DNA from: Maribacter polysiphoniae
Lineage (GTDB): Bacteria > Bacteroidota > Bacteroidia > Flavobacteriales > Flavobacteriaceae
DNA length: 64,000 bases
Direction of reading: 5' to 3'
NCBI RefSeq assembly: GCF_003148665.1
Contig: NZ_QGGQ01000013.1
Coordinates: 37,062-101,061 of the forward strand
This document shows, piece by piece, positions 5,660-51,334 of this stretch. How positions within the stretch are numbered: the first letter of the stretch is position 1; the number at the start of each line of letters is the position of its first letter. Below the pieces are notes generated by a model. That model was not told the origin of the DNA and ran no database searches. It saw nothing but the letters and a program-made list of their open reading frames with translations. The position numbers and the translations under genes were made by a program.

Positions 5660-8041
5660 ATGGCAAAAAAAACAATACTTTCCCAAGGGAATATGGACTA
5701 TAATGATTTGTTGAAACCTTATTTAAAAAATTGGAAGTGGTTTGTAGTTGCTGTATTGATTGCATTGCTTTATGGATACTTTAATATAAGGTATTCCATT
5801 CCACAATATGCATTAAACGCTAAAATTCAAATATTAGAAGATCAAAACTCCAACTCAGAACTTGATGTATTTAGGGATTTGGATATTTTAGGTGGGGGTG
5901 GCAATTTTATACAGGATGAAATCGAGATATTAAAATCTAGGTCCCATCTTATTGAATTAGTAAAAGAGTTGGAACTGAATACTAAAGTTATTGCTTTGGG
6001 TAAAATCAAAGATTCGGAATTATACAGCAATAAGCCTTTTAATATAAATTTTGCTGCTCCTGATTCCATATTGCAAAGTTCAAGTGTGTCTTTTTTCATA
6101 ACCTTATTCTCTGACACCTCCTTTGAATATGCTGAGGACCAGGATACACCGGCAAAAATATTTTCTTTCGGCAAAAATATTTCTTCCCCAATAGGGGATA
6201 TTATCATCACTCCCAATATGTCAGGTATTGAATCCTATGTCGGTAGAAAATATAAGGTTTCTGTTATACCTATTTCCGTGGCTGCCGGACAATTGTATCA
6301 AAAAATACAGGTTTCAGTAGAAAGCGAAAAGTCAAAAATTCTTTCAATATCATTGGAAGACCCTATAATTGATAGAGGTCGTGACATCATTAATACGTTG
6401 ATCGAAAAATATAATCAAAATGCTGTTGATGACAAAAAAGCCATTGCGAATAGGACCTCGAATTTCATTAATGATAGAATAGCAAATATTTACGGTAGCC
6501 TGTCCGCTGTTGACCAAAGTGAGGAGGATTTTAAGCAAGGTAGGGGAATTGCGGATATAGCCACCCAGACTAATATGAATGTAAATATCGGCGCGGCCAA
6601 TCAACAGGAGCTGCAAAACGCCTCCGTGCAATTGGATATTGCTTCCTCCATGAAGGATATCATAGATTCCCAAGAAGGGTATGATCTATTACCTTCCAAT
6701 ATTGGATTGGCCGACGCTTCTATTGCCAATACTACCGCAAGATATAATGAACTGGCCTTGGAACGAAAACGTTTGTTGGAAAGTTCCAATGAGAAAAACC
6801 CGATTATCGTAAATTTGGATCAACAATTGGCAGGACTTAAGCGGAGTATGCAGTCCAGTTTAAATAGTGTGACCAACAATTTGGGGATGCAGGTGAATAG
6901 TTTAAGTAGCCAGATGTCTCGCATTAATTCCAGAATCTATTCAGCACCGCGTAACGAAAGGGCACTTCGGGATATCACACGACAACAACAAACTACTGAA
7001 TCGCTTTACTTATATTTATTACAAAAGCGTGAGGAAGCGCAAATTACCTTTGCTTCTGCTTCTCCAAAATCAAAAATCATAGATAGCGCTTATTTGGTAA
7101 GTCCATTGCCGGTTTCTCCAAAAAAGCGAATAATAATGTTGGCCTCATTAATTTTTGGATTATTGGTTCCCTATGCAGTAATATATGTTAAAAATCTTTT
7201 GGATAATAAAGTGCAAAATAAAGTTGGATTGGAAAAGATGGTGGGTGATATTCCAGTCTTGGCGGAATTACCTAGTCTTTCCAAAAAAGAGAATTCCTTG
7301 GTGAAACTTGGCGAGCGTACGGTTTTGGCAGAATCTTTACGCATCTTACGGACCAATCTCGATTATATTATAAAATCAAAGAAGAAAAAAGACTATAAGA
7401 GTACTATCATTTATGTTACCTCCAGTGTTTCAGGGGAAGGTAAAACCTTGATAGCTTCCAATTTGGCCATGATATTTGCTAATACCAATAAGAAAGTCCT
7501 ACTCATTGGGGCAGATATTCGAAACCCGAAAATCTATCAGTTCTATTCAGGGAAAAACGTCGATAAATTAGGGAAACCTACAAGAAATATCGAGAACAAA
7601 GGACTAACCGAATATTTAGTGGACCATACCTTGGGAAGTAGTGATATTATTTCTCCCATGTTGGCCCATGAGCAAACGGTTGACGTCGTTTATTCCGGTA
7701 AAATACCGCCTAACCCTGCCGAACTTTTGATGAATGGGCGTATGAAAGAATTGCTCGACGAAGTTAATGATCGCTATGATTATATTATCGTTGATACAGC
7801 ACCTTTGATGGTGGTCACCGACACCCTATTGATCAGTGAATATGCCGATCAAATCCTCTATGTGGCCAGGGCAGGGATGACTGAATTGAAAGTTTTGGAA
7901 TATCCTCTTAAGCTTCATAAAGAAGGAAAACTCAATGGATTATCCTTCATCGTTAATGGTGTAAAAGATTCTAATTTGGGTTATGGAGGTAAATATGGCT
8001 ATGGCTATGGCAAGACCACAAAGAAATGGTGGAAATTTTAA
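5660..8041 (+). CDS. Wzc-like polysaccharide co-polymerase and tyrosine autokinase
   Basis: This 793-residue inner-membrane protein controls polysaccharide chain length and export by autophosphorylation. It has a TM helix near residues 30-48, a Wzz domain, a long coiled-coil periplasmic region, a GNVR-like segment (SAPRNERALRDITRQQQ) and a second TM near 492-512. The cytoplasmic BY-kinase domain has Walker A SVSGEGKT, Walker A' IGADIRNPK and Walker B YIIVDTAPL. The C-terminus is Gly/Tyr-rich (GYGGKYGYGYG, then KTTKKWWKF), the expected phosphotyrosine tail, though with few tyrosines. A second copy of this tail survives as a relic at 12426-12473. No glycosyltransferase follows; the next 700 bases have no gene. 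Confidence 0.92.
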   Translation: MAKKTILSQGNMDYNDLLKPYLKNWKWFVVAVLIALLYGYFNIRYSIPQYALNAKIQILEDQNSNSELDVFRDLDILGGGGNFIQDEIEILKSRSHLIELVKELELNTKVIALGKIKDSELYSNKPFNINFAAPDSILQSSSVSFFITLFSDTSFEYAEDQDTPAKIFSFGKNISSPIGDIIITPNMSGIESYVGRKYKVSVIPISVAAGQLYQKIQVSVESEKSKILSISLEDPIIDRGRDIINTLIEKYNQNAVDDKKAIANRTSNFINDRIANIYGSLSAVDQSEEDFKQGRGIADIATQTNMNVNIGAANQQELQNASVQLDIASSMKDIIDSQEGYDLLPSNIGLADASIANTTARYNELALERKRLLESSNEKNPIIVNLDQQLAGLKRSMQSSLNSVTNNLGMQVNSLSSQMSRINSRIYSAPRNERALRDITRQQQTTESLYLYLLQKREEAQITFASASPKSKIIDSAYLVSPLPVSPKKRIIMLASLIFGLLVPYAVIYVKNLLDNKVQNKVGLEKMVGDIPVLAELPSLSKKENSLVKLGERTVLAESLRILRTNLDYIIKSKKKKDYKSTIIYVTSSVSGEGKTLIASNLAMIFANTNKKVLLIGADIRNPKIYQFYSGKNVDKLGKPTRNIENKGLTEYLVDHTLGSSDIISPMLAHEQTVDVVYSGKIPPNPAELLMNGRMKELLDEVNDRYDYIIVDTAPLMVVTDTLLISEYADQILYVARAGMTELKVLEYPLKLHKEGKLNGLSFIVNGVKDSNLGYGGKYGYGYGKTTKKWWKF

Positions 8042-43027: not shown

Positions 43028-43774
43028 TTAATACAAGCGTATGATATCCGAGTATCGGAAGATATTCGTTGGTTTCAGCCCAAGACCTTTTTCTTGGTAG
43101 AGTTCTTGGGGTACACTAATATCACCCACATACAATTCGCCCACTACTTTTTTTGTCTCGCAGGCGAACAGGCCCTTTTTGGGCAAGGCGAGCGTCAACG
43201 TAGCGGAGGCCTTAATAATGGGTTCGTAAAATTCTCCGGTTGTGAGATCCAATCCCGAAGGGGTATCCAAGGCAACGATGGGTACTTTTTGGGAATTCGC
43301 CCAATGGATCATAGCTGCCGCAATACCATGCGGATTTCCCTTTAGGCTATACCCAATGATCCCATCAAGAACGGCATCGATATTTTCCCTTTCGGGCAAG
43401 GGCTCCGCCAATGAGATGGAAACTCCCATTCGCTTTAAAATCCGATATTGGTGCAGAGGTATTGGGGTAAACCTCTCTTCTTCCGCTGTGGTATATACTT
43501 GTACTTTGGCACCCCAATTGTGCAAGCGCCTTGCCGCGACCAATGCGCCACCCCCATTGCCGCCGGTACCGGCCAGTATTACAATGTTCTTGCCTTCTAC
43601 GTCCCCATCGAAAAAACGTTCTTTGACCAGTATGGCCAAACAGCGCCCGGCGTTTTCCATCATTTGGATCAGTCCGATGTGGTATTCGTCCATCATCAAT
43701 CGGTCCACCTCGATCATTTGGGCAGTATTGATCTTTGGGGAATCAGTATGGCTATTTTTAATATAGGTACTCAT
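43028..43774 (-). CDS. nnrE: NAD(P)H-hydrate epimerase (YjeF N-terminal domain)
   Basis: This 248-residue cytoplasmic protein epimerises damaged (R)-NAD(P)HX to the S form for repair. Conserved features are the N-terminal MxEVDRLMMDEY helix, MMENAGRCLA, IVILAGTGGNGGGALVAARRLHNWG (nucleotide-binding loop), LDGIIGYSLKGNPHG and VALDTPSGLD. The dehydratase (YjeF C-terminal) half is absent, so the partner kinase/dehydratase must be elsewhere. It lies 30 bases after the DUF6789 membrane gene on the same strand and is therefore probably read from the ECF-type promoter at 44277-44302. Confidence 0.88.
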   Translation of the reverse strand: MSTYIKNSHTDSPKINTAQMIEVDRLMMDEYHIGLIQMMENAGRCLAILVKERFFDGDVEGKNIVILAGTGGNGGGALVAARRLHNWGAKVQVYTTAEEERFTPIPLHQYRILKRMGVSISLAEPLPERENIDAVLDGIIGYSLKGNPHGIAAAMIHWANSQKVPIVALDTPSGLDLTTGEFYEPIIKASATLTLALPKKGLFACETKKVVGELYVGDISVPQELYQEKGLGLKPTNIFRYSDIIRLY

Positions 43775-43804: not shown

Positions 43805-44236
43805 TTAGGCTATTTTCGGTTCTTTGGCCATAAGCGCGACAACGATACCGAAAATAACATGGCCCATAACTCCACCAATAATCATCGGAATCATGGACCC
43901 TTCGGGTTCTGGCATTCCCCCAGCCATCGCGCCCATAATTGCCATAGCGATTTGTGCAAAAATGAAAATAGCGATTCCGAAGAGTATTCCTTTGAACAAC
44001 TTGCTGGCAATCTTGACGTTTGGCTGGAATAGGTAGATGTAGGATGCAGCAAAAATAATCCCGATTATAAAGTGCATGATCCATCCTACGACGATGGGCA
44101 TGCCCATCATACCCGCCATCATAGCTGGTGGACTCATTTTTGGCATTCCCATCATGGGGGCGATCGTCATAACGATTGTCATTACTACGGTTGCTGCGAT
44201 TCCGGCAACCAACGATTTTGTGATTTTAGTGTTCAT
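43805..44236 (-). CDS. Four-helix DUF6789-like membrane protein
   Basis: This 143-residue integral inner-membrane protein has four hydrophobic helices (VAGIAATVVMTIVMTIAPMMG, VGWIMHFIIGIIFAASYIYLF, LFKGILFGIAIFIFAQIAMAIMGAMAGG, IIGGVMGHVIFGIVVALMA). It is rich in Met and Gly (MMGMPKMSPPAMMAGMMGMP). I place the start at the MNTKITK methionine; a longer frame from 44284 would run through the -10 promoter element. The family is of unknown function. It heads a unit with nnrE and is preceded by two ECF-type promoters. Confidence 0.78.
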   Translation of the reverse strand: MNTKITKSLVAGIAATVVMTIVMTIAPMMGMPKMSPPAMMAGMMGMPIVVGWIMHFIIGIIFAASYIYLFQPNVKIASKLFKGILFGIAIFIFAQIAMAIMGAMAGGMPEPEGSMIPMIIGGVMGHVIFGIVVALMAKEPKIA

Positions 44237-44276
44237 GTGTTTTTTTATTAGGTAAATATTTGTTGTATGAATGAAT

Positions 44277-44302
44277 AGACGCATTCAAATGACATCCTGA
44301 CA
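44277..44302 (-). promoter_or_regulatory. ECF-sigma promoter P1 (DUF6789-nnrE)
   Basis: The minus strand reads TGTCAGGATG (44293-44302), 11 bases, then CGTCTATT (core CGTCT at 44277-44281). It matches the other copies in this region element for element and lies 41 bases before the DUF6789 start. Confidence 0.75.
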
Positions 44303-44452
44303 ATTTTATTTTAAAATCTGGAGTTGAATGTCTTATTGGTGCCTAAAAGAGGGGCAATACATTGTACATTAAGGTAGATGGTTACCCCAAACTTCTAGGT
44401 CTTTCAAAAATGTCTCTTAGATATATGGTTTATAATATCGTCACATATTGAT

Positions 44453-44478
44453 AGACACCTCAAAAGGATATCCTGACA
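44453..44478 (-). promoter_or_regulatory. ECF-sigma promoter P2, second minus-strand copy
   Basis: The minus strand reads TGTCAGGATA (44469-44478), an 11-base spacer, then TGTCTATC (core at 44453-44457). One base differs from the CGTCT core. It points the same way as P1 and would give the same unit a longer leader; no small gene lies between the two. Confidence 0.6.
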
Positions 44479-44546
44479 ATTATTATGAAGTAATTCAATA
44501 ATGATCCATTGCTATATCCACTAGGGAGGAAAAAAATTTACAATAT

Positions 44547-44572
44547 TGTCAGGATTCGTGTTTTCATCGTCT
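44547..44572 (+). promoter_or_regulatory. ECF-sigma promoter P3 (DUF547 gene)
   Basis: TGTCAGGATT (44547-44556), an 11-base spacer, then CGTCT (44568-44572). The distance from the end of CGTCT to the TTG start (26 bases) equals that of P4 to its ATG. Confidence 0.78.
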
Positions 44573-44582
44573 CTTTAAAGAG

Positions 44583-44590
44583 AAAGGAGG
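44583..44590 (+). promoter_or_regulatory. Strong Shine-Dalgarno deciding the DUF547 start
   Basis: AAAGGAGG is a full anti-16S match and ends 7 bases before TTG 44598. Strong Shine-Dalgarno sites are rare in this phylum, so it argues for the TTG start over ATG 44622. Confidence 0.6.
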
Positions 44591-44597
44591 AAAAACA

Positions 44598-45425
44598 TTG
44601 AAAACTAAAATTCATATACCGATGAAAAAAATAGCAATTCTAAGTGGGGCCGTGCTTTTGGTCGCATTTTTTTACTTGAACAATCGGTTCGGCCTACTAT
44701 CGCTGGCGGGGCTCAATGCTAAGGGACTGCCTACCAAAATAGTAAACGGGAGTTTAGCTTATACCCCAGTAATTTCGGCTACAAGTATAGATCACTCCGA
44801 ATGGACGGCATTATTAAAGAAGTATGTTACCGATGAAGGACAGGTAGACTACAAAGGATTTTCGCGGGACAAAAGCAAATTGGACGATTACCTGAAGGCA
44901 CTTTCAAAACAGGTTCCTACAAACGATTGGTCGGTACAGGAACAACTGGCCTATTACATTAATCTGTACAACGCCCATACTGTAGATTTGATTTTGAGAA
45001 ATTATCCCTTAAAAAGCATTAAGGATATTGATGGACCCTGGACTAAGGATTTTATCAAAATAGGGGAAAAGGAACTTTCACTTGGTGCACTGGAACACAG
45101 CATCCTCAGAAAAATGAACGAGCCTAGGATTCATTTTGCCATCAATTGTGCCTCGGCTTCTTGCCCCACATTATTAAACGAGGCTTTTACTCTGGAAAAA
45201 CTGGAGGAACAATTGGAAAAAGTTACGATTGCTTTTATCAATTCGGATAATAATAGCATCAGTACTCATAAATTAGAGCTGTCACGGATTTTCAAGTGGT
45301 ATAAAGACGATTTCAAAAATGGTGAATTAATACAATTTATCAATCCATATACCGAGGTTAAAATAGACCTAAAAGCAATATTTAGCTATAAGAAATACGA
45401 CTGGGGCTTAAACGAAAAGAATTAG
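44598..45425 (+). CDS. DUF547 domain-containing protein
   Basis: This 275-residue protein has an N-terminal hydrophobic helix (IAILSGAVLLVAFFYL), acting as a signal anchor, and a DUF547 domain. Family motifs are LAYYINLYNAHTVDLILRNYP, KSIKDIDGPWTKDFIKIG, LSLGALEHSILRK and RIHFAINCASASCPTLLNEAF. The His and Cys residues of that last block are the conserved candidate active site. It is probably exported or membrane-anchored; the reaction is unknown. TTG 44598 is chosen because of the perfectly spaced AAAGGAGG; ATG 44622 is the alternative. It is driven by promoter P3. Its stop overlaps the convergent anti-sigma stop. Confidence 0.85.
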   Translation: MKTKIHIPMKKIAILSGAVLLVAFFYLNNRFGLLSLAGLNAKGLPTKIVNGSLAYTPVISATSIDHSEWTALLKKYVTDEGQVDYKGFSRDKSKLDDYLKALSKQVPTNDWSVQEQLAYYINLYNAHTVDLILRNYPLKSIKDIDGPWTKDFIKIGEKELSLGALEHSILRKMNEPRIHFAINCASASCPTLLNEAFTLEKLEEQLEKVTIAFINSDNNSISTHKLELSRIFKWYKDDFKNGELIQFINPYTEVKIDLKAIFSYKKYDWGLNEKN

Positions 45426-45709
45426 TTTTCGTTTCGTTTTATTTTGTCCAAGATTTTTTTCTTGGCAGCGTCGTCCATGGGTTCAGAATTTTTTGGGGTT
45501 GAAGACATCAATCGCGAAAGAGCACGATCTATCAGAGCGGATTGTTTTTCATATGATCGACATGTTTTACAAAAGGCCAAGTGCGTCCTATATTTTATCC
45601 TTTCCGTAAAAGATAATTCGGTGTCCTCTTTTGATTCCACCATTTCAGTAATCCTCATACAGGAAAATGTTAAGCTGCCCAAAATTCTTTTAATTGTTTT
45701 CATAACCAA
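45422..45709 (-). CDS. Zinc-finger anti-sigma factor
   Basis: This 95-residue cytoplasmic protein has the zf-HC2 pattern: a Cys in LTFSCMRITEMVESKED, then HLAFCKTCRSYEKQ (H-x3-C-x2-C), the zinc-binding anti-sigma domain (ZAS). There is no TM helix, so unlike many anti-sigma factors it appears soluble. It lies 39 bases downstream of the ECF sigma factor on the same strand, the classic sigma/anti-sigma order. A zinc-thiol centre would let it sense oxidants or metals directly; that is inference. Its stop overlaps that of the convergent DUF547 gene by 4 bases. Confidence 0.82.
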   Translation of the reverse strand: MVMKTIKRILGSLTFSCMRITEMVESKEDTELSFTERIKYRTHLAFCKTCRSYEKQSALIDRALSRLMSSTPKNSEPMDDAAKKKILDKIKRNEN

Positions 45710-45748
45710 TTCATTTGACCTAAATAGAAATTGAGAACCCCTCAGGAT

Positions 45749-46312
45749 TCAATGTTTCCAATTGTTGTCGATACATTTTTTCAGCATTAATTTCGATCGA
45801 TGCACGATCTGCCAATAATTAGACACATTCACATTCATTTCCTGACAGATTTGATCGGTGGTTTTATCGGTAAGATATTTTGATACTACCGCCAAGCGCC
45901 AATTATCAGGAAGCTTATCGACACATTGATCCAAGGTTTTCTTAAATTCACTGTTGTCCAAAAGATGAACTTCTTCCTCCCAAGCAACTTCACTTCCCGA
46001 GACTTTCCAATTTTGGTTTGAATCGAAAAAAGAGTCCGTTGTATTGGTGTATTTATGTTCCAATCGCTCATTATTCACAGCAGCGGACTTTGCCTTTTTG
46101 CGATAATGGTCAATAATTTTATTGTTCAAAATTGCGAATAACCAAGTTTTCGGATTGCTTTTATTTTGAAATTTTTTCAAACCTTTTACCGCAGACAAGA
46201 AAGTTTCCTGGACGAGATCTTCAGCAACTTCCTTTGAAGATGTTTTATGATATGCCCAGCCATAAAGGTCATCCGAATATTCGTGGAACCATTCTTCAAT
46301 TATTGCTTTCAT
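45749..46312 (-). CDS. ECF-type RNA polymerase sigma factor
   Basis: This 187-residue sigma-70-family factor has only regions 2 and 4. Region 2 spans about residues 8-80 (YGWAYHKTSSKEVAEDLVQETFLSAVKGL, NPKTWLFAILNNKIIDHYRKKAK). Region 4 spans about 120-185 (LDQCVDKLPDNWRLAVVSKYLTDKTTDQICQEMNVNVSNYWQIVHRSKLMLKKCI), with a helix-turn-helix for the -35 element. It is co-transcribed with the downstream zinc-finger anti-sigma gene. Four or more matching promoters lie within 2.5 kb. Its own upstream region has only a -35-like GTCAGG without the CGTCT core, so autoregulation is doubtful. Confidence 0.93.
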   Translation of the reverse strand: MKAIIEEWFHEYSDDLYGWAYHKTSSKEVAEDLVQETFLSAVKGLKKFQNKSNPKTWLFAILNNKIIDHYRKKAKSAAVNNERLEHKYTNTTDSFFDSNQNWKVSGSEVAWEEEVHLLDNSEFKKTLDQCVDKLPDNWRLAVVSKYLTDKTTDQICQEMNVNVSNYWQIVHRSKLMLKKCIDNNWKH

Positions 46313-46730
46313 ATGTTAATGTACTACAATTGGGTTGAATTAAAAAACCTGACGATAAAGTCGCTTAAAAGATTCAATACTTTCATGGATTAATTATTGA
46401 TCACCTCCAAAAAAAGATGTTATCGCTGCATTATTATTTCATAGTTCGATAACAAAAAGCTTTGCTATATCCTGAAATGGTTCCTTTAGCATAGCAAAAT
46501 CCAAAGACCGTCCAATCGTATTTGGGCTTTAAAAAAAAAGTTCCTTTTAAAACTCCATTTCTACCCCTTATACCTCAATTATAAGGCAACAATCCCTTTG
46601 CCGGGCAGTTCAACATTTTATAAACGTACTCATTCCTAGCTGGAATCCGGATAAAATCGAATAAATTTTTGGGCCTTGATGTCAGGATTAATTGGTTGAG
46701 CGTCTATTTGATAAAATAGTATAACCGTTC
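46313..46730. promoter_or_regulatory. Divergent region between ECF sigma gene and seven-gene operon
   Basis: This 418-base gap contains, on the minus strand, a -35-like TCGTCAGGTT (46346-46355) before the sigma gene but with no CGTCT at the right distance. On the plus strand the full promoter P4 lies at its end. An 8-bp inverted repeat TTTGCTAT/ATAGCAAA (46461-46468 and 46491-46498) has a 22-base loop. No coding frame is seen. Confidence 0.5.
46680..46705 (+). promoter_or_regulatory. ECF-sigma promoter P4 (OB-fold/YceI/LysE operon)
   Basis: TGTCAGGATT (46680-46689), an 11-base spacer, then CGTCT (46701-46705), 26 bases before the ATG at 46731. Both elements are identical to P3 while the spacer differs completely. 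Confidence 0.8.
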
Positions 46731-47204
46731 ATGAAAAAAAAGAAGATTAAAATTATAGTTGGTGTTTTGGTTTTATTACTGGTTGGTGTTTCAGGTGTGG
46801 TATATTACCTATTTAATATGCCACATCGTAACATTCAGGAAGCTAAAACGGATTACAGTATCTCTTCCTCGGAAATTGTAAAGGAGTACCTAGTAGATGC
46901 CACGATTGCGAATGAAAAATACCTAGAGGAAGAAGGGGATTCAAAAATCTTAGCGGTCACCGGAAAGATTTGTACCATAAGTGAGGACCAGAATAATCAA
47001 AAAGTGATTTTACTTAAAGACACCTCAGACAAAGCAGGGGTCAGTTGCACATTTACCGAAGCGACCAATGGCAGCACAAAAGAATTAACAATCGGTCAGA
47101 CGGTAACCATTAAAGGTGTAATACGTTCGGGTGCAGGCTTTGATGCCGACCTTGATATGTATGAAGATGTCATTATGGAAAAATGTGATGTAGTCAATGA
47201 ATAA
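46731..47204 (+). CDS. Membrane-anchored OB-fold (tRNA_anti-like) protein
   Basis: This 157-residue protein has an N-terminal helix (IIVGVLVLLLVGVSGVVYYLF) and a mature OB-fold-like domain. The segments ILAVTGKICTISEDQNNQKVILLKD, VSCTFTEAT and LTIGQTVTIKGVIRSGAG follow the pattern of tRNA_anti-like/OB-fold proteins in Bacteroidota (beta strand, VTGKV, IxGxV). Three cysteines are present. The domain is expected outside the cytoplasmic membrane. It is the first gene of a seven-gene operon under promoter P4 and lies 41 bases before yceI. Its ligand is unknown. Confidence 0.72.
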   Translation: MKKKKIKIIVGVLVLLLVGVSGVVYYLFNMPHRNIQEAKTDYSISSSEIVKEYLVDATIANEKYLEEEGDSKILAVTGKICTISEDQNNQKVILLKDTSDKAGVSCTFTEATNGSTKELTIGQTVTIKGVIRSGAGFDADLDMYEDVIMEKCDVVNE

Positions 47205-47245
47205 AATTGAATGAAGATCAATAAAACAAGTACTAACAATTAAAT

Positions 47246-47818
47246 ATGAATAAGATGAACAAATTATCAGTAGCAGTTATCGCAATAGCTGTATTTACGT
47301 TAACAGCTTTTAAACCTTCTGCCAGCAAATTGATCAGTAAAGATGCTCATATAAGCTTCTTTTCACATACTGCCGTGGAAGATATTACGGCCAATAACTA
47401 TAAGGTCGTAAGTACACTTAACCCAACAACAGGCGATATTGTCTATTCGGTACCCATGCAAAGTTTTGAGTTCGATAAAGCCTTGATGCAAAAACATTAT
47501 AACAGTAGTAAATTTTTGGACACCAAAAAGTACCCCAAGGCAAAGTTTACGGGGAAGATATCCGATCTGGCAAGTGTTGATTTCACCAAAGACGGCAGCT
47601 ACGAAGCCGACATTACCGGTAACCTAACTATCAAGGACAAAACAAATCCGATCAATGAAAAGGCGACCATTACGGTCAAAGACGGCAAGGTCTCCCTTAA
47701 TACAAAAATGAACTTGGCACTTGGAGATTATGGTATCACTTTTTCCGGTGGAAAACCCTCTACCAATATAGCAAAGGAGATAGCAGTTACCGTAAAAGCG
47801 ATATACCAACAAGAATAG
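47246..47818 (+). CDS. YceI-family periplasmic lipid-binding protein
   Basis: This 190-residue YceI-like lipocalin-fold protein is exported by a signal peptide (VIAIAVFTLTAFKPSAS). Family signs are AHISFFSHTAVEDITANNYKV, a MQSFEFDKALMQKHYNSSKFLDTKKYPKAKFTGKI block, YEADITGNLTIKDKTNPI and FSGGKPSTNIAKEIAVTVKA. YceI proteins bind isoprenoid or fatty amide chains and are often stress-induced. Here it is the second gene of the ECF-controlled operon, which supports an envelope role. Length and motifs are canonical. Confidence 0.9.
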   Translation: MNKMNKLSVAVIAIAVFTLTAFKPSASKLISKDAHISFFSHTAVEDITANNYKVVSTLNPTTGDIVYSVPMQSFEFDKALMQKHYNSSKFLDTKKYPKAKFTGKISDLASVDFTKDGSYEADITGNLTIKDKTNPINEKATITVKDGKVSLNTKMNLALGDYGITFSGGKPSTNIAKEIAVTVKAIYQQE

Positions 47819-47852
47819 ATCAATAATCCAATTTAAATAGAATAACAATGGC

Positions 47853-48506
47853 ATGGGCAGACTACTAAGAATATTCCTGATTGGTTTAGTGATTAGTTTT
47901 TTGGGATCACTTCCCTTTGGCACCTTAAATATGACAGCGTTTCATATTGCAGGGTTTCAAAATGTAAGTGAAGCTATACTGTTTGCCCTTGCCGTTGTCT
48001 TTGTTGAGTTGGTTGTGGTTAGAATAACATTGACCTATTCAAAGAAAATTGATTTGGGAAACAAGGTGTTCTTTTATCTTTTACCAATTGCAATTGCATT
48101 ACTCATGTATTTGTCAGTTTCAAGTTTTACTTCTTTGAACGATGATCAGGTCATTCAGGCCGAGAGTAATTTATTTCCAATGTTAAGGTCCTCAATTTTA
48201 TTAGGACTTTTATTGAGTATCCTAAATCCAATGCATATTCCATTCTGGACAGCATGGAACAGTGTTCTGATAGCAAGGAATAGGCTCGACCATAAACCAG
48301 GTATGTATACTTCATACATTACTGGAATCGGTATGGGTTCGATTGGAGGACTTATGATATTCGTTTTCGCCGGCAAGTACATATTTCAAAACTATCATGA
48401 ATACAGCTATTTTATTGCATTTATGATGGGATGCCTTTATCTGGGATTTGCATTTTATCTACTATTCCAACTCTATAAAAATCATTTAAAACTAATCATT
48501 CAATAA
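47853..48506 (+). CDS. LysE-family exporter
   Basis: This 217-residue inner-membrane transporter has about six helices. The opening GLVISFLGSLPFGTLNMTAFHIAGFQNVSEAILFALAVVFVELVVVRI has the family (P-x-G-x-x-N) pattern. LSILNPMHIPFWTAWNSVL is the second half-site, and the C-terminus is a long helix pair. LysE transporters export amino acids or small peptides/metabolites. The stop codon shares one base with the next start, so it is coupled to the DinB-like gene. The neighbouring ATP-grasp and NRDE genes suggest it exports their product; that is inference. Confidence 0.85.
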   Translation: MGRLLRIFLIGLVISFLGSLPFGTLNMTAFHIAGFQNVSEAILFALAVVFVELVVVRITLTYSKKIDLGNKVFFYLLPIAIALLMYLSVSSFTSLNDDQVIQAESNLFPMLRSSILLGLLLSILNPMHIPFWTAWNSVLIARNRLDHKPGMYTSYITGIGMGSIGGLMIFVFAGKYIFQNYHEYSYFIAFMMGCLYLGFAFYLLFQLYKNHLKLIIQ

Positions 48507-48994
48507 TGATGTTCAAGTCTTCAATCCAAACAATAGAACAATTCAAGGAAGTACTTCTGAAACTTCCTGGAGATTGTTATACAAGGCCATGTTTAAACCT
48601 TGGAGGTGCAACAATAGGCCAACATTCAAGGCATATTATAGAATTATATCAATGTCTGTTAGATGGATACACACCGGCAGTAGTCAGTTATGACAAACGA
48701 AAAAGGGACAAACGCATTGAGCAAGACGTGCATTTTGCAGTTGACAGGCTTCAACGGATACAAAATACTCTTGAGCAACCTAAAAGAAAACTACTGATAT
48801 ATCTTGAATTAAATGGTGCCGAGGAAAAAATACAATCGAATTACTTCCGGGAAGTACTGTACAATTTGGAACACACCATACACCATCAGGCTTTGATTAA
48901 AGTGGCGATCAACCAATTTTCCGATATTCAATTGCCAGAGTCATTTGGTGTGGCGCCATCAACCATGCAATACAGAAGCGAATGTGTACAGTAA
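48506..48994 (+). CDS. DinB-like four-helix protein
   Basis: This 162-residue cytoplasmic protein has the DinB/YfiT-like layout. A His in TIGQHSRHIIELYQCLL (about 38-54) and a C-terminal EHTIHHQALIKVAINQF give the three-His metal site of the superfamily. An amphipathic helical middle contains HFAVDRLQRIQNTLEQ. Known members are metal-dependent thiol S-transferases (bacillithiol, mycothiol), though most are uncharacterised. It overlaps the LysE gene by one base and the NRDE gene by 13 bases, showing tight coupling within the operon. Confidence 0.8.
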   Translation: MMFKSSIQTIEQFKEVLLKLPGDCYTRPCLNLGGATIGQHSRHIIELYQCLLDGYTPAVVSYDKRKRDKRIEQDVHFAVDRLQRIQNTLEQPKRKLLIYLELNGAEEKIQSNYFREVLYNLEHTIHHQALIKVAINQFSDIQLPESFGVAPSTMQYRSECVQ

Positions 48995-49698
48995 GCTACA
49001 TATCGAGTGATACCGGTTGTATCATTACGTCAAATCGTGATGAACACACTTCGAGACCTATTGCTTTTCGCCCTCAAGAAGAAATCATAAACAATTATAG
49101 GATTATCTACCCGAAAGACCCAAAAGCAGGGGGTACTTGGTTTGCCATAAGAGAAGATGGCGTGGCGGTTGTCTTACTGAATGGTGCATTTCAAAAACAT
49201 ACCCCTTTTGGGAAATATAGAATGAGTAGGGGCCTGGTATTGTTAGAAATAATCAGTAGCGACCAACCAGATGTTTATTTTTTTAATATGGATCTGTTAC
49301 GAATAGAACCGTTTACCCTTATTCTATTTGATGGAACACGCCTTTTGGAAATGCGATGGGACGGAAAGTCAAAACACTGGAAGAACTTGGATATAAATGA
49401 AAATTATATTTGGTCTTCAGTCACACTTTACGGCGAAAAGGCCACTCGGGAACGTGAACATTTGTTCAACGCGTTTCTAAGGGAAAAAAAGTGGATCAAT
49501 GAAAATAGTATCGTTGATTTCCACATGGGCCATGACAACGATTTTGAGAACGGTTTTGTAATCGATCGCAGTGATGGTCTAAAAACGGTCAGCATTACAC
49601 AAGCGGTGTTCAATGAGGAAGAGTTGGGCTTATCCCATATCGATTTACTCAATGATGCTGAGAAAACCACAACAAGTTGTATAAAATTATATGTTTAA
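48982..49698 (+). CDS. NRDE (TANGO2-like) family protein
   Basis: This 238-residue NRDE-family protein has a start matching the family: MCTVSYIS with Cys2 as the putative N-terminal nucleophile, ITSNRDEHTSRP (the NRDE motif, about 16-27), YPKDPKAGGTWFAIREDGVAVVLLNG and SRGLVLLEI. The fold is Ntn-hydrolase-like; eukaryotic TANGO2 is linked to lipid and heme handling, but no reaction is established. It overlaps the DinB-like gene by 13 bases and precedes the ATP-grasp gene by 3. Its conserved placement between a thiol-transferase-like and a ligase-like gene is notable. Confidence 0.9.
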   Translation: MCTVSYISSDTGCIITSNRDEHTSRPIAFRPQEEIINNYRIIYPKDPKAGGTWFAIREDGVAVVLLNGAFQKHTPFGKYRMSRGLVLLEIISSDQPDVYFFNMDLLRIEPFTLILFDGTRLLEMRWDGKSKHWKNLDINENYIWSSVTLYGEKATREREHLFNAFLREKKWINENSIVDFHMGHDNDFENGFVIDRSDGLKTVSITQAVFNEEELGLSHIDLLNDAEKTTTSCIKLYV

Positions 49699-49701
49699 GC
49701 A

Positions 49702-50751
49702 ATGATAATGGAAAACTTGAAATTACGATTCTATAAATTGATGCATTGGGAGTATTGGTCGCTAGAGGCTATCTATTATCCCATTTTTCCTGTATGGCTG
49801 TATTACGCGATCAAGGCGCGTTCGTTTTTCTTTTTCAGTGCTGCCAATCCATCCATTAAGAATGGGGGCATGGCCATGGAATCCAAAAAAGAGATTTATG
49901 ATTTGATTCCATCGGAATATATTCCAAAAACCATCCTGATAGAACGGAATGCTTCAGTAAATGAAATTTTAGAGACCATGCTGCTCGAAAATCTACGTTT
50001 TCCATTGATTGTAAAGCCAGATATCGGGATGAAGGCCTTCGGCGTAGAAAAAATAAAAGACAAAAACGGGCTCCAATCCTATATACAAAGAAACTCAGAC
50101 GATTTTTTGGTTCAAGAATTTATAGGTTTCCCAAATGAAGTTGGAATATTTTATGTGCGCTATCCAAATGAAAATAAGGGTAGAATAACGGGTATCGTAT
50201 CCAAAGAGTTTTTATCAGTAACAGGCAATGGTAAAGATTCCATACTGCAATTGATAAAACAAAATCCAAGGAGTCATTTGCAACTGGCAGCCTTGAAAAA
50301 AATGTATGGCCTCCAATTGAATAAAACACTACCTAAAAATGAAAAATTTATTCTTGTGCCATACGGCAGTCACACCAGAGGAGCAAAATTCATTGATGCC
50401 TCTGATAAAGCAAATGAAAACCTATTGTATATCATAGACTCAATCTGTACCCAGATTCCAGGATTTTATTATGGTAGATTGGATATTCTTCATTCCTCAT
50501 TGGATGAATTGTCAAAGGGTGAAAACTTCAGTATTATTGAAATAAATGGAGCCGGTAGCGAGCCTACACACATATATGATCCCAAACATTCATTGTTTCA
50601 TGCTTGGCACGAAATCATTCGGCATTGGAAAATGCTTTACGAGGTCAGTAAGATAAACAAGAAGAAAGGGCACTTTTATTTAAGTTATAGAGACGGAACA
50701 GCCATGCTCAGGGCCAATGGTAAACTAGAAGCACGATTAAAAATGATGTAA
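49702..50751 (+). CDS. ATP-grasp (D-Ala-D-Ala ligase-like) enzyme
   Basis: This 349-residue protein has an ATP-grasp fold. LRFPLIVKPDIGMKAFGVEKI supplies the first ATP-binding Lys, DDFLVQEFIGFPNEVGIFYVR the hinge and adenine pocket, GFYYGRLDILHSS and FSIIEINGAGSEPTHIYDP the Mg-binding Asp/Glu/Asn triad. It is annotated in related genomes as D-alanine-D-alanine-ligase-like, but it lacks the usual Ddl N-terminal domain and starts with an aromatic, amphipathic region (MHWEYWSLEAIYYPIFPVWLYYAI) that may sit on the membrane. It likely forms an amide or peptide bond. A second Met at 49708 is an alternative start. Confidence 0.82.
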   Translation: MIMENLKLRFYKLMHWEYWSLEAIYYPIFPVWLYYAIKARSFFFFSAANPSIKNGGMAMESKKEIYDLIPSEYIPKTILIERNASVNEILETMLLENLRFPLIVKPDIGMKAFGVEKIKDKNGLQSYIQRNSDDFLVQEFIGFPNEVGIFYVRYPNENKGRITGIVSKEFLSVTGNGKDSILQLIKQNPRSHLQLAALKKMYGLQLNKTLPKNEKFILVPYGSHTRGAKFIDASDKANENLLYIIDSICTQIPGFYYGRLDILHSSLDELSKGENFSIIEINGAGSEPTHIYDPKHSLFHAWHEIIRHWKMLYEVSKINKKKGHFYLSYRDGTAMLRANGKLEARLKMM

Positions 50752-50752
50752 T

Positions 50753-51334
50753 ATGAAAATAGCACCAATTACTATAATTATCATAGGATTTCTCCTTTGC
50801 ACCCCCGTTTCCAATGCGCAGAATCTGGCAAACGGCAACCCCGTTAAAAGCACAGATCTAGGCATATCAGTCCAATTATATCCTGCTGGTGTAATACCTA
50901 CCATTAATTTGGAACGTTACATTTCAGAAAATTCTTCCTTATTATTTCGCTTGGGTGGAAATTTTACCGACCGTCAAGATTTCAGCAATGAAAACGATCA
51001 TGAAGAAGGTTCGGGTTTTGGGGGGTCTTTTGGGTATCGCCGCCATTTTCCATTTTCCAAAGGAAAAATGGTGGCGGGCCTGCATTTAGATGCTTGGAAC
51101 CTGTGGATAGATTGGGAAGACTCCAATACAATTCCCATATCCGGGACAACCTATATCCTCGTGCTACAACCATGGTTGGAAACCGGGTATTTCTTTCCTA
51201 TTAAAAATTCTTCCTCTCAAATTGGCATTACCGCCGGTTTTGGAAGAGAAGTAAATGCCATTACAAGTGGCGAAGAGGTTGCCCAGGATTGGATAGCCAG
51301 TTTGTTGCTACACTATCAATTTTCACTAAATTGA
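50753..51334 (+). CDS. Small outer-membrane beta-barrel protein
   Basis: This 193-residue protein has a signal peptide ending at VSNAQ. The strands are amphipathic: LGISVQLYPAGVIPTINLERYI, SLLFRLGGNFTDRQ, GSGFGGSFGYRRHFPFSKGKMVAGLHLDAWNLWIDWED, YILVLQPWLETGYFFPI, SQIGITAGFGREVNA, WIASLLLHYQFSLN. The C-terminal aromatic end fits a BAM signal. It predicts an 8-strand barrel. It starts one base after the ATP-grasp stop and is the last gene of the ECF-controlled operon, so it could be the outer-membrane port of the exported product. Confidence 0.75.
   Translation: MKIAPITIIIIGFLLCTPVSNAQNLANGNPVKSTDLGISVQLYPAGVIPTINLERYISENSSLLFRLGGNFTDRQDFSNENDHEEGSGFGGSFGYRRHFPFSKGKMVAGLHLDAWNLWIDWEDSNTIPISGTTYILVLQPWLETGYFFPIKNSSSQIGITAGFGREVNAITSGEEVAQDWIASLLLHYQFSLN

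Follow-up and report, generated by a model that had tools for sequence, protein, structure and literature searches.

A predicted anti-sigma promoter within the helix-turn-helix codons of an extracytoplasmic function sigma gene in Maribacter polysiphoniae

Neisseria sigmaE (rpoE, NMB2144; Ecf in the gonococcus) is paired with the ZAS anti-sigma factor MseR (NMB2145), and its regulon comprises the rpoE operon and msrA/msrB (PMC2893595, PMC3240639). The consensus reported for N. meningitidis sigmaE is GTMAGBWTT-N12/13-CGTCTAAH, spacers of 12 and 13 both being tolerated, and a conserved A 6 nucleotides (nt) past the -10 element agrees with the mapped start of gonococcal msrA/msrB (PMC2893595). Likewise, RpoE2-HrsE of Haemophilus influenzae is hypochlorite responsive and controls msrAB (PMC7907618). 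For Corynebacterium glutamicum, Northern blots indicate a SigH-dependent promoter inside the sigH coding sequence that gives an rshA-only transcript; a reporter confirms this separate promoter, whose starts map 62 and 66 nt upstream of rshA, whereas the promoters of sigH itself are of the housekeeping type (PMC3489674). We compare with these systems an extracytoplasmic function (ECF) sigma gene, the putative anti-sigma gene next to it and five promoter-like sites in a 64,000-nt stretch of Maribacter polysiphoniae DNA (GCF_003148665.1, NZ_QGGQ01000013.1, 37,062-101,061). This whole stretch is called the window, and coordinates are those of the window.

The locus likely represents a compact ECF stress regulon that is held by an anti-sigma factor and that includes an internal promoter for making its own inhibitor, which would render the response self-limiting. 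Furthermore, it is probable that two paralogous ECF families of Bacteroidota carry a conserved promoter within the codons of the sigma factor's own promoter-reading helix-turn-helix, driving the inhibitor gene and forming an overlapping code. To our knowledge, the promoters of many Bacteroidota ECF sigma factors are unknown. One such factor now gains a predicted promoter code, partner and target set, together with a named homologue for which experimental data exist.

Intergenic sites and the sigma factor predicted to read them

An earlier note on this DNA, made from the sequence alone, had described four copies of a two-part motif with unrelated spacers around an ECF sigma gene and its zinc-finger anti-sigma gene, and had proposed that this sigma factor reads them. 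All four copies were recovered at the same positions and on the same strands (Table 1). They have the form TGTCAGGAT-N12-YGTCT (CGTCT or TGTCT, with T as the first -10 base at one of the four sites); the spacer, counted from the 9-mer, is 12 bases at every site, and its letters are indeed unrelated. No match occurred in 100 dinucleotide shuffles of the window. A search of the whole genome (5,129,962 bases, 30 contigs) for exact matches returned the four window sites as the sole ones, and the reversed pattern returned none. A motif scattered over the genome independently of the sigma factor, which the earlier note had named as counting against its proposal, was not observed.

The sigma gene encodes sigma-70 regions 2 and 4. 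Taking ECF factors as proteins of about 180-200 amino acids (aa) with these two regions alone, its product scores above the cut-off for both Pfam domains and for TIGR02937 (97.2 bits; cut-off 42.9), and falls outside TIGR02943 (Sig70_famx1; 128.2 bits, or 127.8 in the genome search, against a cut-off of 162.2). An AlphaFold model (mean pLDDT 80.8, pTM 0.41) has helices at residues 152-159 and 163-184. ECF sigma chains head the Foldseek matches of the model (TM about 0.35, whole length), and region 4 of Escherichia coli sigmaE on -35 DNA (2h27) is matched with TMt 0.81 and E 0.017. A second, interrupted sigma copy, 72% identical over 123 residues and with one internal stop, is present in Pricia antarctica (L124/L068, G289:C44:43350-43718).

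The open reading frame (ORF) directly downstream has the zinc pattern of an anti-sigma factor, as the earlier note had said, though it scores 18.0 with Pfam zf-HC2 and 49.2 bits with NCBIfam antisigmaE, below the respective cut-offs of 22.2 and 50. Residues Cys17, His43, Cys47 and Cys50, read from the translation, fit the ZAS formula C/H-X23-26-H-X3-C-X2-C (PMC7907618). A sequence search of solved structures (E up to 1) gave no match for this protein. Across orthologous loci, the ORF directly after the sigma gene contains [HC]xxxCxxC in 76 of the 77 that were scored (5 of 82 were unscored).

The sites are conserved together with these genes across Bacteroidota. In 299 family genomes drawn evenly from a larger group, sigma orthologues outside the window's own genome were found in G289 (80% identity), G225 (75%) and G120 (59%). 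In genomes other than these four, the best match reached at most 41% identity and was mostly a different sigma; a match at E 1e-20 was present in 241/299. All four orthologue-bearing genomes contain the exact motif, with 4 copies in the window's own genome, 4 in G289, 2 in G225 and 1 in G120 (11 in total), the spacer being 12 in every copy. In the 295 remaining genomes there were 25 copies, spread over 22 genomes and with mixed spacers, and the reversed pattern gave 23 copies in all 299. The chance of four given genomes all falling among the 26 with the motif is 4.6e-5.

A broader set consisted of the best 80 of at least 356 relatives, with sigma factors 44-74% identical and nearly all labelled as Bacteroidetes groups; it includes near species, so its counts are not independent, and kinship is addressed by the tree analysis below. 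The sigma is patchy in the phylum: 53/395 genomes match its profile at E 1e-42, part of them other groups. Allowing one mismatch, spacer-12 sites outside sigma genes numbered 11 in the 80 loci and spacer-13 sites 30, against none in the reversed control at either spacer. A wider pattern applied to 82 loci (the window, L065, L066 and 79 of the 80) gave 95 sites versus 4 reversed. Of these, 94 lie outside sigma genes; the remaining one, in L135, is an internal site counted because the sigma ORF there was mis-called. The gene directly after the site encodes DUF547 (16), an OB protein (16), DUF6789 (4), a DinB-like protein (4), LysE (4), NnrE (1) or Omp85 (1); an anti-sigma gene follows two sites (in L098 and at the internal site of L135), other genes follow 45, and two are followed by no gene. 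The median distance from the -10 element to the start codon is 32 nt. The scan of related genomes that the earlier note had suggested thus finds the motif before orthologues of the same genes and in company with the sigma factor. Together with the Neisseria sigmaE consensus, these observations bear out the proposed pairing of motif and sigma, which is well supported by sequence comparison.

Twenty genes hand-picked from the 45 other downstream genes were searched against Pfam. They included methionine sulfoxide reductase A, SelR (MsrB), OsmC, two carboxymuconolactone-decarboxylase-like proteins, DUF302, thioredoxin-rhodanese, glutaredoxin-flavoprotein and FMN reductase; three of the 20 had no Pfam match at E 0.001 and one had a below-cut-off match alone. 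The msr genes were MsrA in L091 and MsrB (SelR) in L127, and none stands behind the four window sites. Taken together, these downstream genes suggest a regulon directed at oxidant or thiol damage.

Two conserved halves at a fixed spacing could also be the binding site of a transcription factor, that is, an operator rather than a sigma promoter. We find this hardly credible, as the halves form neither an inverted nor a direct repeat, the sites lie at promoter-like distances before start codons (the median given above), sigma-carrying genomes carry the motif, and its form is that of the consensus derived for the homologous Neisseria sigma with a mapped start.

Positive control of the sigma operon by its own product is common among ECF systems and is reported for N. 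meningitidis. The region upstream of the sigma genes makes this very improbable here. Among 78 loci (including L135 with its mis-called ORF), the exact motif occurs within 300 nt upstream of sigma in one (L145; control 0), and with one mismatch in 4 versus 3 in the control. TANNTTTG, the box reported for the Flavobacterium psychrophilum housekeeping sigma (PMC9723704), lies within 150 nt upstream in 38/78 versus 4/78 for the reversed pattern. Thus, the sigma gene looks to be driven by the housekeeping sigma and not by its own product.

DNA-level constraint on an element inside the sigma gene

The earlier note had credited the sigma gene itself with only a partial match. This holds for the upstream region but not for the coding sequence, which contains a one-mismatch copy of the motif pointing at the anti-sigma gene. 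The full internal element, TGTCAGGAAATGAATGTGAATGTGTCT, codes for Cys156-Gln157-Glu158 to Ser164, within IleCysGlnGlu...SerAsnTyrTrp, and its -10 end lies 117 nt from the anti-sigma ATG at 45703. In the predicted structure, it spans the end of helix 152-159, the turn and the start of helix 163-184; this helix-turn-helix is the fold that binds -35 DNA in E. coli sigmaE. With a spacer of 13, the internal site is the sole match in the whole genome (reversed control, 1). Among the 80 loci, 33 of the 63 spacer-13 matches with at most one mismatch fall inside the sigma gene; counting all of them as promoters was therefore dropped, and the internal ones were set apart from the intergenic promoters. 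At orthologous loci, the median distance from the internal -10 end to the next ORF is 79 nt.

Cys-Gln-Glu and Ser-Asn are also conserved as amino acids, and the internal spacer is unlike that of the window promoters. Both points fit an alternative in which the ECF regulon is of the ordinary kind, its promoters being the four intergenic ones, and the internal match arises as a by-product of protein-coding constraint on the helix-turn-helix. Synonymous positions argue against such a by-product. In 81 aligned sigma genes (179 columns; L124, the interrupted copy with a short ORF, and L135, with a wrong ORF, were set aside), the use of the commonest codon in each column was compared with each locus's own codon usage. 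Residue 163 ranked first (58/67 versus 11.1 expected, z 15.7), followed by residue 157 (80/80, z 14.0; Gln CAG 68/68 and Lys AAG 12/12) and residue 164 (63/79, z 13.0), while residue 156 ranked sixth (Cys TGT 79/79, z 7.2). Residue 163 may be Val, Pro, Lys, Ser, Thr, Ala or others, yet its third base is G in 69/81 genes. On the tree, it shows at least 37 amino-acid changes versus 8 third-base changes; 11 columns, residue 163 included, have at least 37 amino-acid changes, and each of the other ten has at least 26 third-base changes.

Ranks 4 and 5 are held by residue 52 (Ser AGC 48/80, z 11.2) and residue 168 (Gln CAG 55/81, z 7.5), both unexplained; the split codon set of serine favours high z values, which bears on residue 52. 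In 8 neighbouring gene families, none of 1319 columns reached z 10. The highest value was 7.6, in the anti-sigma family (79 genes), and the other control families were smaller (14 to 30 genes). We therefore rejected the idea that such constraint is common to the genes of the neighbourhood. When control columns were scaled for sample size, none reached the value of residue 163, and 0.2%, 0.4% and 9% reached those of residues 157, 164 and 156, respectively. Unexplained codon constraint was also seen in the control families, in one DinB column (CAG 15/15) and one TANGO2 column (GTA 14/14). Codon-pair bias was rejected as the cause of the internal constraint (197/9106 comparable pairs, 2.2%). Inspection also led us to reject an internal start of translation, since few loci share the ATG that follows TGTCAGGAA in the window.

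In seven held-out orthologues (L151-L157, from 30 loci, possibly including species of the 80-locus set), TGT was present in 7/7, a Gln or Lys codon ending in G in 7/7 and the wobble G in 6/7. The -10-like half also tracks the type of -10 element used elsewhere at the locus. Where residue 164 is Ser TCN, intergenic -10 elements are GTCT in 55 and GACT in 13; with Thr ACN, they are GTCT in 4 and GACT in 20, and loci with a G-initial codon have 0 and 2. No matching covariation (TGTC/TGTA) of the internal with the intergenic -35 was seen at the wider-pattern sites of the 82 loci; at the Lys-codon loci L091, L111 and L149, TGTCAGG occurs at 3/4 intergenic sites. In L098, the internal site is broken and the anti-sigma ORF still adjoins sigma; a second anti-sigma gene lies 2.7 kb downstream and has a sigma-type site of its own, TGTCAGG-N15-CGACT, 25 nt before its start.

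These data show DNA-level constraint on the internal element, as measured by codon use. With the wobble base held largely at G through so many amino-acid replacements, with no such constraint seen in neighbouring gene families and with the same pattern repeated in a paralogous family (below), we regard a mere by-product of protein coding as unlikely. We read the element instead as a promoter for the anti-sigma gene, a predicted built-in brake.

A paralogous sigma family and the proposed circuit

A paralogous kind of sigma factor is present in most family genomes searched and served as a replicate. The test set comprised 60 genes from 60 genomes, the window's own included, out of about 240 seen. 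The homologous wobble base ranked first among 177 columns (Pro CCG 32/32, Ala GCG 26/26, z 19.5) and Ser TCT second (52/60); Cys TGT was found in 60/60. A zinc-binding pattern occurs in the ORF after the paralogous sigma in 54/60, and the internal -10 lies a median of 70.5 nt before the start of that ORF. In the window's own genome, the pair (L239, G000:C2; sigma 5977-6531, zinc-type partner 6522-6761) forms an isolated two-gene unit, and the gene that comes next lies on the opposite strand, so the internal element there can serve the anti-sigma gene only.

This arrangement also bears on the possibility that the internal site binds sigma holoenzyme without giving a useful transcript, acting as a decoy, pause or roadblock. 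Many intragenic PhoB binding sites of E. coli are transcriptionally inert (PMC10294691), and the -35-like part of the element is more conserved than the -10-like part, which favours this possibility. However, constraint extends to the -10-like bases, which match the -10 type used at their locus, and the next ORF is both close (the median of 79 nt) and anti-sigma-like in all but one of the scored loci. Given in addition the isolated position of the paralogous pair, we assign a low probability to a site without a transcript and retain a promoter for the anti-sigma gene as the preferred reading.

Several observations weigh against that reading. In the window clade, the intergenic spacer is 12 and the internal one 13, and the last -10 base has changed from T to C in 3/7 loci taken as this clade (L065, L072, L103). 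The internal -10 is eroded in several distant loci while TGTCAGGA stays. The association between TCN or ACN and -10 type (Fisher 3e-8, uncorrected for relatedness) stems from 7 inferred changes, which lessens its weight. From 66 plasmid-collection records that matched, five sigma genes of Proteobacteria were chosen, and none has the two-part element; one of these loci (L277) retains TGTAAGGAA without the -10 half. For the paralogue, an intergenic promoter with the internal sequence was sought nearby and not found. TGTAA-N17-CGTCTA gave 155 matches versus 111 reversed in the 60 genomes, and about 28 of those listed are internal copies. Finally, the paralogue's Asn codon is AAT in 47/47 and never the AAC needed for the recurrent TGTAAC.

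Two other patterns surfaced in this search. TGTAA-N14-CGTCT (8 versus 0 reversed) was rejected as the paralogue's promoter: 7/8 copies share one position, some 3.8-4.5 kb away from sigma, and have closely similar letters, and we take these seven, which lie on the strand opposite the sigma gene, as one conserved coding stretch read backwards. TGTAAC-N16-CGTCTA recurs in the 60 relatives, some copies apparently being orthologous between species, and may mark promoters of another ECF sigma factor.

In the circuit that we propose, the sigma factor would be made at a basal rate together with its inhibitor, its gene being driven by the housekeeping sigma rather than by its own product. Inactivation of the anti-sigma factor, probably by an oxidant acting at its Cys3His zinc site, would free the sigma to direct RNA polymerase to the intergenic sites before the DUF547 gene, DUF6789-nnrE with the hairpin RNA and the seven-gene operon. 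Active sigma would also transcribe the anti-sigma gene from the fifth site, which overlaps the codons of the -35-reading helix-turn-helix, and with more inhibitor supplied by this internal promoter the response would limit itself. The start of transcription at any of the sites and the inducing signal are what we infer from these patterns.

If true, the same bases write a -35-reading protein and a -35/-10 element, in the first family an element predicted to be read by that very protein. Negative feedback would then be built into the sigma gene, and reading head and promoter would be forced to evolve together. A real internal promoter would mean that a regulatory element is kept in conserved coding bases across much of the phylum, at the domain that reads the element, and that a stress response has a simple shut-off. 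Synonymous recoding of sigma genes may alter regulation, and motif counts near such sigma genes must mask the coding copy.

Target genes, hairpin RNA and comparison with known systems

The features of the locus are listed in Table 1. In the seven-gene operon, the DinB and ATP-grasp genes were named from matches below the cut-off and the last gene by inspection; the order of all seven is kept in L066, L072 and L103. Neighbours often retained in the best 80 loci are the sigma, anti-sigma, OB, YceI, DinB-like, TANGO2, ATP-grasp, LysE and Omp85 genes; DUF547, DUF6789 or nnrE is also found near sigma, with varying sets and order.

Table 1. Predicted elements and genes of the sigma locus (window coordinates)
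Feature	Coordinates	Strand	Remarks
Promoter-like element within sigma coding sequence	45821..45847	-	TGTCAGGAA-N13-TGTCT; codons 156-164; one mismatch; points at anti-sigma gene
ECF sigma factor gene	45749..46312	-	187 aa, regions 2 and 4; Pfam Sigma70_r2 70.8 bits, Sigma70_r4_2 28.9 bits
Soluble zinc-type (ZAS-like) anti-sigma gene	45422..45709	-	likely start ATG 45703; Cys17-X25-His43-X3-Cys47-X2-Cys50
Predicted sigma-type promoter, seven-gene operon	46680..46705	+	-10 end to OB-gene ATG, 25 nt
Predicted sigma-type promoter, DUF547 gene	44547..44572	+	25 or 49 nt before the start codon (TTG 44598 or ATG 44622, respectively)
Predicted proximal sigma-type promoter, DUF6789-nnrE	44277..44302	-	-10 end to ATG 44239, 37 nt
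Predicted distal tandem sigma-type promoter, upstream of hairpin RNA	44453..44478	-	213 nt before DUF6789
Conserved hairpin RNA element	44335..44407	-	between tandem promoters; no Rfam match
DUF6789 membrane protein gene	43805..44239	-	Pfam 42.4 bits, cut-off 27.1
nnrE, NAD(P)H-hydrate epimerase	43028..43774	-	TIGR00197 130.1 bits, cut-off 88.6
DUF547 gene	44598..45425	+	start TTG 44598 or ATG 44622; Pfam 90.8 bits, cut-off 27
Seven-gene operon: OB (tRNA_anti-like), YceI, LysE, DinB-like, TANGO2, ATP-grasp-like, outer-membrane protein	46731..51334	+	

The tandem promoter arrangement is found in L067 and L072 too. The hairpin between the tandem sites recurs at L067:8496-8571 (-), L072:11878-11952 (+) and, more diverged (44.7 bits), L103:16462-16532 (+), and a sigma-type site precedes each copy by 46 to 83 nt. 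Its inner stem shows changes on both sides at three pairs, which is modest support (29/500 shuffles score as high). Compared with shuffled sequences, the folds of L072 (z -3.05) and L067 (z -2.93) are more stable and that of the window is not (z -0.99). Rfam gave no gathering-score match in the window and three chance-level matches alone in 44100-44700. In 397 family genomes searched under strict filters, matches were confined to G000, G289 and a weak one in G153 (E 0.0045), which on inspection was taken as chance; the orthologue genomes G225 and G120 were not listed under these filters. The hairpin is a candidate small RNA under the control of this sigma, comparable to the sigmaE-dependent one of N. 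meningitidis.

Literature searches, which covered sources other than subscription papers, returned neither an internal promoter circuit of this kind in Bacteroidota nor conservation within helix-turn-helix codons, and C. glutamicum sigH-rshA is the sole precedent recognised there. A start-site study of F. psychrophilum describes a CGT-box motif, for which its accessible text gives no letters to compare (PMC9723704).

Gold/copper (GIG, bufferin-type) operons that contain DUF692, DUF2282 and DoxX, for example on a Pantoea soli plasmid, resemble the window in that a homologous sigma adjoins a small zinc-finger (zf-HC2) partner. They differ in that no DUF692-type gene is among the identified genes of the window regulon, and the sigma genes examined have no internal element. 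On a Burkholderia glumae plasmid (L278), TGTAA...CGTCTA (1176) and TGTAA...CGACTA (4714) lie upstream of genes neighbouring a homologous sigma with a zf-HC2 partner, so that Neisseria may not be the only proteobacterial genus to use this promoter code.

As in C. glutamicum sigH-rshA, the window has, by its sequence, a predicted sigma-dependent promoter within the sigma coding sequence and in the sense of the anti-sigma gene. The corynebacterial promoter reads TGGAAGA / TGTTAAA, and overlap with helix-turn-helix codons is not mentioned in the accessible text (PMC3489674). That case is experimental and concerns one species, whereas the window case is drawn from conservation. This precedent makes the mechanism proposed here more probable and the circuit less novel.

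The window system also resembles that of Neisseria. The gonococcal sigma (tblastn) is 34% identical to the window sigma, the window sites fit the core of the sigmaE consensus while the outer bases vary, and the gonococcal operon begins with a matching site. In both systems a soluble ZAS anti-sigma gene lies directly downstream of sigma. MsrA, MsrB and thiol genes stand behind the motif in some other Bacteroidota, and the sigmaE-dependent small RNA of Neisseria has a possible equivalent in the hairpin RNA. In contrast, Neisseria sigmaE positively autoregulates its own operon and the gonococcal sigma gene has no internal element, while the window sigma has an internal site and no autoregulatory one, and its predicted targets are DUF547, DUF6789-nnrE and the YceI operon. 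Since the consensus matches and the sigma factors are homologous, the pairing of sigma and promoter agrees with independent experimental work on the homologue. Overall, within the explanation that fits these data best, the window system is the Bacteroidota counterpart of Neisseria sigmaE-MseR.

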